Below the pieces are notes generated by a model. That model saw only the letters and a list, made by a program, of their open reading frames with translations, was not told where the DNA came from and did not search any database. This document shows, piece by piece, positions 14,965 through 17,865 of a stretch of 39,584 bases of DNA. The translations under genes were made by a program, and so were the position numbers. The DNA comes from a virus. The stretch is from positions 1 to 39,584 of the IMG/VR virus record IMGVR_UViG_3300020122_000326. One strand, written 5' to 3'. Every line of letters begins with the position of its first letter. The stretch's first letter is position 1.

Positions 14965-15158
14965 GCAAGGCGCCCAGGAAAGAAGCAAAATGGATTAGCG
15001 CTGCGGACGCGAGAACGGAAATCGACACGCTGATTTTCCGCCTTGGCATGCAGGCCGGCCGTTTAATGATGCGAAAGGGAAGATCAGCCCAGCGGACGTT
15101 GAAGCGCAATTTTGACCAAGCCAGATCGCTTGGCGTGAAAATCGATATCGATCTGTGA
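14961..15158 (+). CDS. Small basic hypothetical protein (65 aa)
   Basis: This is a strongly basic helical protein with clustered Arg/Lys ('GRLMMRKGRSAQRTLKRNFD') and could bind nucleic acid. It is coupled at both ends (ATGA to the preceding gene, GTGA to the J-domain gene). No family is recognised. Confidence 0.6.
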   Translation: MSKAPRKEAKWISAADARTEIDTLIFRLGMQAGRLMMRKGRSAQRTLKRNFDQARSLGVKIDIDL

Positions 15159-15784
15159 GCGAGCAGCGACAGGCCTACCCGCTTTCATGGCCAGACGGAT
15201 GGCCAAGGACCGTGAGCCATAGCAGGCAATCTAGCAATTTCCAGCGGGCTGTCAGTTACGGAGCGCGCAGGCATTCAATGGATGAGAGCTGCCGACAGCT
15301 CGGCGCCGAGCTGGGCCGGCTTGGTGCTAAAAACGAGGTTCTATCCACGAATGTTAAGCGGCGCCTGGACGGAGCTCCTTATTCGGGCCAGGCGCAACCG
15401 CAGGACACAGGCGCGGCCGTTTATTTCGAACTGAAGGGAAAGAAGATTAGCCTGGCGTGCGACAAATGGAACCGAGTTGAGGATAACATTTGGGCGATCG
15501 CCAAACACGTGGAGGCGCTGCGCGGGCAACAGCGATGGGGCGTCGGATCGATAGACCAGGCTTTTCGCGGTTATACGGCACTGCCGGCTATCGGTACCAC
15601 CAGCGGCATGAATTGGTGGGAAGTGCTGGGCGTGCCGATTAATTCCGCCCCCGACCAGGTGAGAGAGGCGTACAAGATTCTTGTGCGCAAACAACATCCT
15701 GATGGCGGTGGCGACCGGGAGAGATTTCAGCGCATCCAGGAGGCCTGGGAGCAATTTGAAAAAATGGCTAAGAGAGTTGCATGA
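15155..15784 (+). CDS. J-domain (DnaJ-like) protein (209 aa)
   Basis: Residues 153-205 are a J domain: 'WWEVLGVPINSAPDQVREAY' followed by the invariant HPD at 181-183 ('KQHPDGGGDRERFQRIQEAW'). J domains recruit and stimulate Hsp70 (DnaK). The N-terminal about 140 residues are unrelated to DnaJ and contain strands 'AAVYFELKGKKISLACDKWN'; they probably bind a phage target. In lambda, DnaJ/DnaK remodel the replication preprimosome, so a phage J protein next to the putative initiator could direct host DnaK to that step. The GTG start overlaps the upstream stop. Confidence 0.85.
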   Translation: MSEQRQAYPLSWPDGWPRTVSHSRQSSNFQRAVSYGARRHSMDESCRQLGAELGRLGAKNEVLSTNVKRRLDGAPYSGQAQPQDTGAAVYFELKGKKISLACDKWNRVEDNIWAIAKHVEALRGQQRWGVGSIDQAFRGYTALPAIGTTSGMNWWEVLGVPINSAPDQVREAYKILVRKQHPDGGGDRERFQRIQEAWEQFEKMAKRVA

Positions 15785-16098
15785 GACAAGAGGACTTCAA
15801 AGAGTTCCAAGATCACATTAGGTCGCAAAAGCTCGACCCAGCATTCGAAACCGTCGAGGCGATCTGCGTTATGTCCGGGCCATGCGCTGTGATCGAAATC
15901 GTAGTAGCACAAGCGGCCAACGACAGCGGGATCCCGATGGATTGGGGATATACTGGAGGCCGGGCATTTATCCATGCCAAAGGAGACCGTGATAAGGCCA
16001 GGTTGGCCATCTGCAGAGCCTTTCCATTGTTAGACCTTGATTGCGGAAACGGATATCTGAATAAAAAAAGGCCGACCCCGGTTAGGGCCGGCCAATAG
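15781..16098 (+). CDS. Hypothetical early protein (105 aa)
   Basis: It is coupled to the J-domain gene by ATGA. The sequence contains 'VEAICVMSGPCAVIEIVVAQ' and 'MDWGYTGGRAFIHAKGDRDK', a small alpha/beta-looking protein with no family I know. The last codons are written over the stem of a minus-strand terminator (16063-16093), so the C-terminus 'NKKRPTPVRAGQ' is dictated partly by that structure. Confidence 0.6.
   Translation: MRQEDFKEFQDHIRSQKLDPAFETVEAICVMSGPCAVIEIVVAQAANDSGIPMDWGYTGGRAFIHAKGDRDKARLAICRAFPLLDLDCGNGYLNKKRPTPVRAGQ
16063..16093 (-). terminator. Minus-strand terminator overlapping a plus-strand gene end
   Basis: On the minus strand a 9-bp stem (one G-U pair), with arms at 16085-16093 and 16070-16078 and a 6-nt loop, is followed by seven T. 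Read on the plus strand the same structure has an A run in front and no T tract behind, so it works only leftward. The nearest leftward gene upstream is the response regulator. Confidence 0.75.
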
Positions 16099-16166: not shown

Positions 16167-17186
16167 ATGCGGGTCACGCTTTGGGGTCGCGCTGTGATCG
16201 GGCCACGCCTTCACGAGTGGCGGATGGTGAGTTTGGCGATGGCAGACATCCTGGCTGTGTTCGATTTTAGCCTTCGAGAGCTTAAGATCCTGTCACTCGT
16301 CAGGATGATGTCATTCGGGGCTGGCAAGCCAGAGGTGGAATTGCCAACGTTGGATCATTTCTCTAAGGCATTAAAAATAACCAAGGGCAATGTGAGCGAC
16401 TTGTTGAAAGACCTGGGCGCTGGCAAAGCCGAAAATGCTCCTCCGGGCAGGAGGGTATTGGCGAGAAGAGGAAATTTTTATGGCTTTAGATTTCCAATAA
16501 CGGCTTGGGACGTTTGGCAACGCGTCGAGCAAATCGAGATCATTGACCAGCTCGAAATGTTAGAAAGGCCGGCTTGCCTCCTAACGGCTTTGCGCGACAC
16601 TTTTGTTGAAGCGGTGTTACAGCAAGCCACGGATAGAGCGCCCGTGGCACTACATCAAACGCATGCCAAAGTTCCCGAATCGGGAACCGAGGCACCAACG
16701 CACAACAGACCGTCAGTTCCCGAATCGGGAACTGACGGAGCGTTCCCGAATCGGGAACCATGGAAAAAACGCAATGTTTTTGGGGCCGAAATGGCTCCCG
16801 TTCCCGAATCGGGAACGCCTTGGGGTACAACAGAAGCAAATTTGCAACATTGCAGTTTTGCTCCTAAAGGAGGATCTCTGAAAGAACAAATTTGCAATGT
16901 TGCAAATTTGGAGGTTCCCGATTCGGGAACAGAGGTCGAGTCGAGGGTCGGTAATCGACTAACACCGGAGGAGCAGGAGATTTTTGACGAATGCGGACTC
17001 GTCGGCGCATTTGGCCCAAACCTTGAATCGCGAGGCTGCTGGTTTGCGATGGTTAAGAAGCGTCCGGAGACCGTCAAAGAGCTATTGGGAGAGCTTCGTA
17101 TGCGGCTGCGGGAAGACACCATACGCAATCCAGGCGCATGGATGATGGACAAATGGATCCGATGGAAAAGGCCGGATGATCGCTAA
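16167..17186 (+). CDS. Putative replication initiator containing its own iterons (339 aa)
   Basis: The N-terminal about 110 residues look like a winged-helix DNA-binding domain ('LPTLDHFSKALKITKGNVSD'). Residues about 165-255 are low complexity with repeated 'VPESGT' because the DNA carries palindromic iterons. The C-terminal about 85 residues are helical ('LTPEEQEIFDECGLVGAFGP', 'NPGAWMMDKWIRWKRPDD'). An initiator gene with iterons in its middle is the arrangement of lambda O and its origin. The start may be the first ATG or an ATG 19 or 24 codons later. It follows the early operon and has no recognised helicase or polymerase neighbour, so host replication proteins would be recruited. Confidence 0.7.
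   Translation: MRVTLWGRAVIGPRLHEWRMVSLAMADILAVFDFSLRELKILSLVRMMSFGAGKPEVELPTLDHFSKALKITKGNVSDLLKDLGAGKAENAPPGRRVLARRGNFYGFRFPITAWDVWQRVEQIEIIDQLEMLERPACLLTALRDTFVEAVLQQATDRAPVALHQTHAKVPESGTEAPTHNRPSVPESGTDGAFPNREPWKKRNVFGAEMAPVPESGTPWGTTEANLQHCSFAPKGGSLKEQICNVANLEVPDSGTEVESRVGNRLTPEEQEIFDECGLVGAFGPNLESRGCWFAMVKKRPETVKELLGELRMRLREDTIRNPGAWMMDKWIRWKRPDDR
16671..16930. repeat. ori: Iteron array, probable origin of replication
   Basis: Five 17-bp inverted repeats lie inside the initiator gene at 16671, 16716, 16742, 16800 and 16914. Four read GTTCCCGAATCGGGAAC, and the last has T at its centre and so faces the other way. The second extends to 29 bp (CCGTCA/TGACGG flanks). Between copies 4 and 5 lie two AT-rich elements sharing AAATTTGCAA (16838 and 16888), the second a longer palindrome, which may be the unwinding region. 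Irregular spacing rules out CRISPR. Confidence 0.75.
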
Positions 17187-17187
17187 A

Positions 17188-17865
17188 TCAATGCACGGCC
17201 TGGCGACGTATCCAAGCAGCTTGGGCTATGCTGGAGGCTCCAGTTTTTACGAGTATGCTTTTTACGTGAGTTTTTAGGGTATTCTCACTGAGCCCGATTT
17301 CCGCGGCGGTTTCTTTGTAGGTTTTTCCTCTTTCGAGTTCGGAGAGAATTCTTTTTTCTTGGGGGCTTAGCCTGCCCAATAAAGGTGTTCGCCGACGGAA
17401 GAAGAGGATCAGTTCTTCAGCGACCTCGGGACTTATGGCGGGACGGCCGCCATGGACTCTTGCTATCGCAGTGGCCAGGACCTGACGTGGGGTTCGGGTT
17501 TTGACGAGGTAACCGTCGGCTTCGCTTTCGAATGCGCTAAAAATTCTTTCGGGGACCGCGCTGGCGCTGAGGATGATGACCTTTAGCCGAGGAAGCTCGC
17601 GCTTAATCTGCCGGCATGCATCGAGTCCATCGAGTCCTCCAGGGATGGTGATATCTAAAAGGAGAACATCGGGCCTCATGCGATGGATGGCGGCGCCGGC
17701 GATCGCAGTCTCGAAGGAGTCGAACGATCCGATCCAGGCAAGGGAGGTGCTATGCCTCATTTCGAATTCGAGGCATTTGAGCAGGGTTAGATCATCATCG
17801 ATGCCAACAACTCGTATGCGATTTTGGCCCTTCAAAACCTGATCCAAAATACCGTTATCACACAA
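17188..17865 (-). CDS. Response regulator, NarL/FixJ type (REC + LuxR HTH)
   Basis: The receiver domain (about 15-135) has all key residues: acidic Asp23-25 in 'GIDDD', phospho-acceptor Asp71 in 'LLLDITIPG', Ser100 and Lys122 in 'YLVKTRT'. Residues about 165-222 form a LuxR/GerE helix-turn-helix ('RLSPQEKRILSELERGKTYK', 'ENTLKTHVKSILVKTGA'). It would be phosphorylated by a host sensor kinase and bind DNA as a dimer. No kinase gene is present. The start is GTG. It is isolated on the minus strand between the initiator and packaging genes, two bases from the convergent initiator stop, and looks like an acquired host-type regulator that lets the phage read host signals. Confidence 0.88.
   Translation of the reverse strand: MCDNGILDQVLKGQNRIRVVGIDDDLTLLKCLEFEMRHSTSLAWIGSFDSFETAIAGAAIHRMRPDVLLLDITIPGGLDGLDACRQIKRELPRLKVIILSASAVPERIFSAFESEADGYLVKTRTPRQVLATAIARVHGGRPAISPEVAEELILFFRRRTPLLGRLSPQEKRILSELERGKTYKETAAEIGLSENTLKTHVKSILVKTGASSIAQAAWIRRQAVH

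Follow-up and report, generated by a model that had tools for sequence, protein, structure and literature searches.

Phages lambda and SPP1 carry a replication origin within the gene of the initiator, and in both this arrangement is experimentally established (PMC7466680, PMC6022878, PMC6316719). In lambda, the iterons bound by dimers of the O protein lie midway through gene O, beside an AT-rich tract that becomes unwound (PMC7466680, PMC6022878); in SPP1, oriL lies inside gene 38 and consists of repeats and an AT-rich unwinding element (PMC6316719). O-like or DnaD-like initiators from Gram-positive bacteria and their phages (Paenibacillus prophages, Geobacillus phage GBK2, and Brevibacillus phage Jimmer1) resemble the gene described here in their N-terminal domain and in-gene arrays. 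The Paenibacillus arrays have the same arms as our locus, GTTCCC-N5-GGGAAC, and the GBK2 array has GTTGGT-N5-ACCAAC, likewise with 6-N5-6 geometry.

The stretch that we analyzed (the window) is a phage genome of 39,584 nt that is known from environmental sequence alone. It has a 127-bp direct terminal repeat and thus is probably complete, and integrase, terminase, portal, capsid, and tape-measure genes were recognized by Pfam and PHROG scans. One of its genes very probably encodes a lambda-O-type initiator and carries the phage origin inside its own coding sequence. The gene and the elements found within it were the following.

16167 to 17186, plus strand: O-like replication initiator gene of 339 aa, assigned by family membership (A1), with a putative origin inside.
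16671 to 16687, plus strand: iteron 1, GTTCCCGAATCGGGAAC, encoding VPESGT.
16710 to 16738, plus strand: iteron 2, a perfect 29-bp palindrome with the core GTTCCCGAATCGGGAAC at 16716 to 16732, encoding VPESGT.
16742 to 16758, plus strand: iteron 3, in another frame (phase 2), encoding FPNRE.
16799 to 16817, plus strand: iteron 4, a 19-bp palindrome, encoding VPESGT.
16837 to 16910, plus strand: AT-rich inverted repeat with arms at 16837 to 16863 and 16884 to 16910, a putative unwinding and hairpin element.
16914 to 16930, plus strand: iteron 5, GTTCCCGATTCGGGAAC, with a reversed center (T, not A), encoding VPDSGT and lying beyond the inverted repeat.

The five 8-1-8 palindromes reported in the original prediction were all perfect and all located within the ORF. 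They share the 17-bp form GTTCCC-GANTC-GGGAAC (GTTCCCGANTCGGGAAC), start at 16671, 16716, 16742, 16800, and 16914, and span 16671 to 16930; the fifth differs from the prediction in having T, not A, at its center. The extension of one copy to 29 bp was exact, and the proposed VPESGT protein repeat was found in four of the five copies (as VPESGT or VPDSGT), the copy at 16742 being read in another frame. No further copy with three or fewer mismatches was present elsewhere in the 39,584 bases, where the next best site mismatched at 4 of 16 positions. None of 200 synonymous-codon shuffles of the gene reached five sites, which excludes a chance origin of the array. An antisense ORF at 16655 to 17152 with VPDSGT repeats was rejected as a by-product of the palindromes. 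In both the window and the relative L148, the final iteron has the reverse orientation, but this was rejected as a family rule because it was not general among the relatives.

The two AT-rich palindromic elements that had been noted next to the iterons were indeed AT-rich and adjoining, but they proved to be the two arms of a single inverted repeat that separates iteron 4 from iteron 5. The arms are 27 nt long, 89% complementary, and 20 nt apart, and the element contains 65% AT versus 44% for the record. It overlaps the 60-bp stretch with the lowest stability in the gene, which ranks at the 99.2 percentile across the record, and its single strand folded with -23.7 kcal/mol compared with -9.5 ± 2.4 kcal/mol in dinucleotide shuffles (z = -5.95). 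Among the relatives, the hairpin was strong in L016 and clear in L012, while it was weak or absent in L152, L011, L006, L024, and L148 and thus is not a universal part; the values for L029 and L034 were not clean, as the folded ranges took in iteron sequence. Iterons flanked the AT-rich element on both sides in the window and in L012, L016, L034, L148, and L152.

The protein was divided into three parts.

16206 to 16526, plus strand: winged-helix N-terminal domain (residues 14 to 120), PF04492/lambda O-like, with putative iteron binding.
16647 to 16949, plus strand: linker predicted by AlphaFold to be disordered (residues 161 to 261), with the whole array inside.
16959 to 17183, plus strand: C-terminal helical domain (residues 265 to 339), from AlphaFold helices and alignment A5.

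The winged-helix N terminus that had been proposed was borne out by a confident AlphaFold prediction, with pLDDT values mostly above 90. The window protein had no direct Pfam or PHROG match (PF04492 was absent up to E=1), it matched nothing in the phage records, and a related-locus search with the protein returned no relative. Its PF04492 (Phage_rep_O) membership therefore rests on profile comparison. The window-family profile aligned with residues 25 to 121 of lambda O (hhalign E=1.5e-5) and with the PF04492 domain of the relative L031 (E=2.4e-11), whereas an unrelated HTH control protein gave E=0.23. Additionally, the N-terminal profile A2 matched Paenibacillus O-like genes with values of 1.8e-14 and 1.8e-8. 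These comparisons show that the N-terminal domain is remotely homologous, at the level of sequence profiles, to that of lambda O.

In Foldseek searches, the nearest solved folds of the N-terminal domain were the winged helices of MarR/GntR regulators, weak matches of which none fell below E=0.2. These matches, together with the perfect dyads, which have the typical shape of operators, would suit a winged-helix regulator that acts on sites in its own gene, repressing it or blocking its transcription (as autoregulation or in immunity) and playing no part in an origin. However, the sites lie in the middle of the gene rather than at a promoter, an AT-rich hairpin is embedded in the array, and the homology is to lambda O. 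Furthermore, no other initiator candidate was recognized in the genome, with no second replication protein found besides this ORF when about 30 of its proteins were scanned. We consider a purely regulatory role of the palindromes improbable, and autoregulation could coexist with origin function.

AlphaFold gave pLDDT values below 50 at residues 161 to 209 and 215 to 261, and this predicted disordered stretch coincides with the array, which agrees with the proposal that the sites force peptide motifs that probably form a linker. The C-terminal block had pLDDT values of 67 to 92 and matched no known family, with no relatives found in the PDB, among DnaD proteins, or in the lambda O C terminus. 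No DnaB_2 domain was detected there by Pfam, and the C-terminal profile A5 aligned with the C terminus of L031 over 16 columns with E=0.069. L031 differs from the window protein in having a DnaD/DnaB_2-type C terminus. A role of the window C-terminal domain in helicase recruitment is inferred, since this domain is unlike lambda O, DnaD, and solved structures and no loader gene lies 3' of it.

A layout like that of lambda O/ori with unrelated sequence had been proposed. The layout was confirmed, with dyad iterons placed centrally in the gene, in several frames, in an inter-domain stretch, and next to an AT-rich element; the sequences are not wholly unrelated, given the homologous N-terminal domain and the 6-N5-6 geometry shared by the iterons. 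Several differences were evident. The lambda iterons read TCCCTC-N5-GAGGGA rather than GTTCCC..GGGAAC, and the four of them lie on one side of the AT-rich tract, whereas those of the window lie on both sides. The window C-terminal domain was not recognizably related to that of lambda O, and no P-like loader gene adjoined the initiator. In GBK2 and Jimmer1, too, a helicase loader gene adjoins, and none is present 3' of the window initiator. SPP1 gp38/oriL is alike by description in having origin repeats and an AT-rich unwinding element in the initiator gene, but its repeats are described as direct, it has a second origin (oriR), and it encodes its own loader and helicase.

No P- or DnaC-like loader adjoined the window initiator; the next gene encodes a response regulator and runs in the opposite direction, the terminase comes after it, and no helicase or helicase loader was recognized in the phage by PHROG scans of about 30 proteins. 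Two neighboring genes were annotated.

15155 to 15784, plus strand: DnaJ-domain protein (PF00226; phrog_9210), two genes upstream of the initiator.
17188 to 17865, minus strand: full-length response regulator (receiver and LuxR-type HTH), directly 3' of the initiator gene.

The DnaJ-domain protein had homologues in 86 phage records with very diverse hosts, and one of them was in L006, close to the O-like gene of that phage; a chaperone partner in origin remodeling is a possibility. ORF 15781-16098 ends, just 5' of the initiator gene, in a G+C-rich inverted repeat beside an A-run (16073 to 16096), which looks like a terminator. GC skew, a check suggested in the original prediction, was positive overall and showed no inflection or extremum at the array, and its range was within that of the block shuffles with which it was compared.

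Palindrome arrays are also found at partition sites, and a centromere-like or incompatibility array of a plasmid-like prophage would have a similar appearance. We regard this as very unlikely here: the phage encodes an integrase, no ParA/ParB-like protein was recognized among the proteins scanned, and the gene bearing the array is an O homologue.

We searched IMG/VR for the 17-mer and then for close pairs of the arms GTTCCC-N5-GGGAAC. The paired-arm scan returned 19 stretches, and 14 of these (12 distinct genes) had the array in the middle of a homologous O-like gene. A control palindrome of the same composition with reversed arms returned 2 stretches, neither of them in an O-like gene. Relatives scoring above the PF04492 cutoff included L011 (1.2e-7), L034 (6.7e-7), L025 (4e-11), and L031 (1.7e-18), with L011 and L034 being members of the window family A1, and PHROG labels on some relatives read "replication initiation O-like" or "DnaD-like helicase loader." The outer arms were constant, while the five central bases varied between phages.

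These genes allowed us to ask, as the original prediction had suggested, whether relatives keep the DNA palindrome more than the encoded peptide. Selection for a VPxSGT peptide, with the palindrome as a by-product, would explain the common frame of four of the five window copies and of every copy in L011 and L016. However, 36 of the 83 sites in the 16 genes with GTTCCC arms were out of the VPxxGT frame, as is one in the window, and the palindromes of the relatives occurred in all three frames. In each of the 16 genes, none of 200 synonymous-codon shuffles matched the observed number of sites, and the linker that contains the peptide is predicted to be disordered. The peptide explanation is largely refuted, and we assign it a very low probability. 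Retention of the palindromes in every frame, the remote homology to lambda O, and the coincidence of the predicted linker with the array all favor the interpretation of the locus as an iteron origin within an initiator gene.

Prevotellaceae and Victivallales genomes also contained dispersed copies of GTTCCC-N5-GGGAAC that lay away from initiator genes, and the palindrome alone is therefore no marker of an origin; its gene context is. In Prevotellaceae loci (within L039 to L135, e.g., L040, L060, and L110), dispersed palindromes were spaced 22 or 44 bp apart in many places. Paired GTTCCC-TGTAG-GGGAAC and GTTCCC-CTACA-GGGAAC units with complementary cores, approximately 30 to 50 bp apart, were found in L043, L056, L063, L068, L072, L095, and others, from Victivallaceae, Chlamydiota, and one Prevotellaceae bin; these look like another dispersed repeat element. 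Two copies of GTTCCC-GCGTA-GGGAAC were located in the middle of a gene for a different winged-helix-like protein in L057 (2745 to 3740), L065, and L032, which come from Azospirillum genomes and a phage contig; this protein may be the initiator of a separate family that shares the arms. Regular arrays of the GTTCCC-arm palindrome were seen in a Calothrix plasmid gene (L086, 2150 to 3331; four copies, core AATTT) and an Oscillatoria scaffold (L097; core TCTTA), and both are possible plasmid iterons.

To avoid choosing relatives by the palindrome, we also sampled phages with similar terminases (55 to 97%). L152 and L148 had a homologous initiator at the corresponding position, where the palindromes were of other kinds, AGTTGGTAAATTACCAACT-type and TGTTGGGAAAATCCCAACA. 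In L148, the O-like ORF opens with a tandem 18-bp repeat that encodes repeated MSQPNP (46 to 117), and its true start could therefore be further inside. Three other terminase-related phages, L153, L156, and L157, shared the C-terminal domain alone, with a different N terminus and without such an array.

L153, 3890 to 4633: putative initiator sharing the C-terminal domain only.
L156, 3914 to 4606: putative initiator sharing the C-terminal domain only.
L157: putative initiator sharing the C-terminal domain only.

L153 retained an AT-rich inverted repeat just 5' of the C-terminal domain. The dispersed copies in Prevotellaceae and Victivallales, which have identical arms, raise the alternative that a mobile REP- or MITE-like palindrome of the kind seen in Prevotellaceae was inserted here by chance. 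However, in the window genome the palindrome was restricted to one gene, it occupied the same position in homologous genes of unrelated phages, and other palindromes substituted for it in syntenic relatives, which leaves chance insertion with a negligible probability.

Nine complete PF04492 genes were picked by protein from 121 Bacilli genomes, and seven of them had in-gene palindrome arrays above the level of synonymous shuffles. Together with the GBK2 and lambda arrays, these genes indicate that in-gene arrays are common in the PF04492 family, and the window fits this pattern. A rule that all O-type iterons begin with GTT was rejected, as it failed for lambda, L187, and L192. In Verrucomicrobiota, an N-terminal profile search of 388 genomes gave three marginal matches and no more, and PF04492 was not found in 289 genomes; terminase relatives were present in 20 of the 388, on loci too short to reach the initiator.

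Overall, the lambda-O-type in-gene origin is of an already known kind, and the window represents a diverged branch that varies in having iterons to either side of the hairpin, a C terminus of no known family, and no recognizable loader; it does not represent a new principle. By analogy with the described systems, we infer that the array is a functional origin whose iterons are bound by the protein. In the proposed mechanism, the five GTTCCC-N5-GGGAAC iterons would be occupied by dimers of the N-terminal winged helix, which would wrap the region, and melting would occur at the AT-rich inverted repeat that separates iteron 4 from iteron 5, perhaps with hairpin extrusion. The C-terminal domain would then bring the host replicative helicase, directly or via a host loader, leading to theta replication. 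Because the sites have to be accommodated within the gene, they would be placed in the stretch coding for the disordered linker, where peptides such as VPESGT, FPNRE, and similar ones would be tolerated.

More tentatively, and with less than even confidence, we propose that the origin is modular in the terminase-related phages. The AT-rich inverted repeat and the C-terminal domain would form a unit joined to interchangeable N termini, each with a private linker array of the GTTCCC, AGTTGGT, or TGTTGGG type; in L153, L156, and L157, its partner would be an unrelated N terminus lacking such an array. The unit would open the DNA and bring the helicase without a phage loader.

These results extend the lambda paradigm, in which the origin lies in the initiator gene and coding and cis-acting sequence are jointly selected, to a diverged branch that had no match in the phage records searched. 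They also offer a genomic test, namely, a private palindrome array in mixed frames within the disordered linker region of a phage gene that codes for a winged-helix protein. With such arrays, origins and initiator specificity would be directly readable from phage sequences in metagenomes, and homologues with differing arms provide natural pairs for studying site choice by O-type domains.
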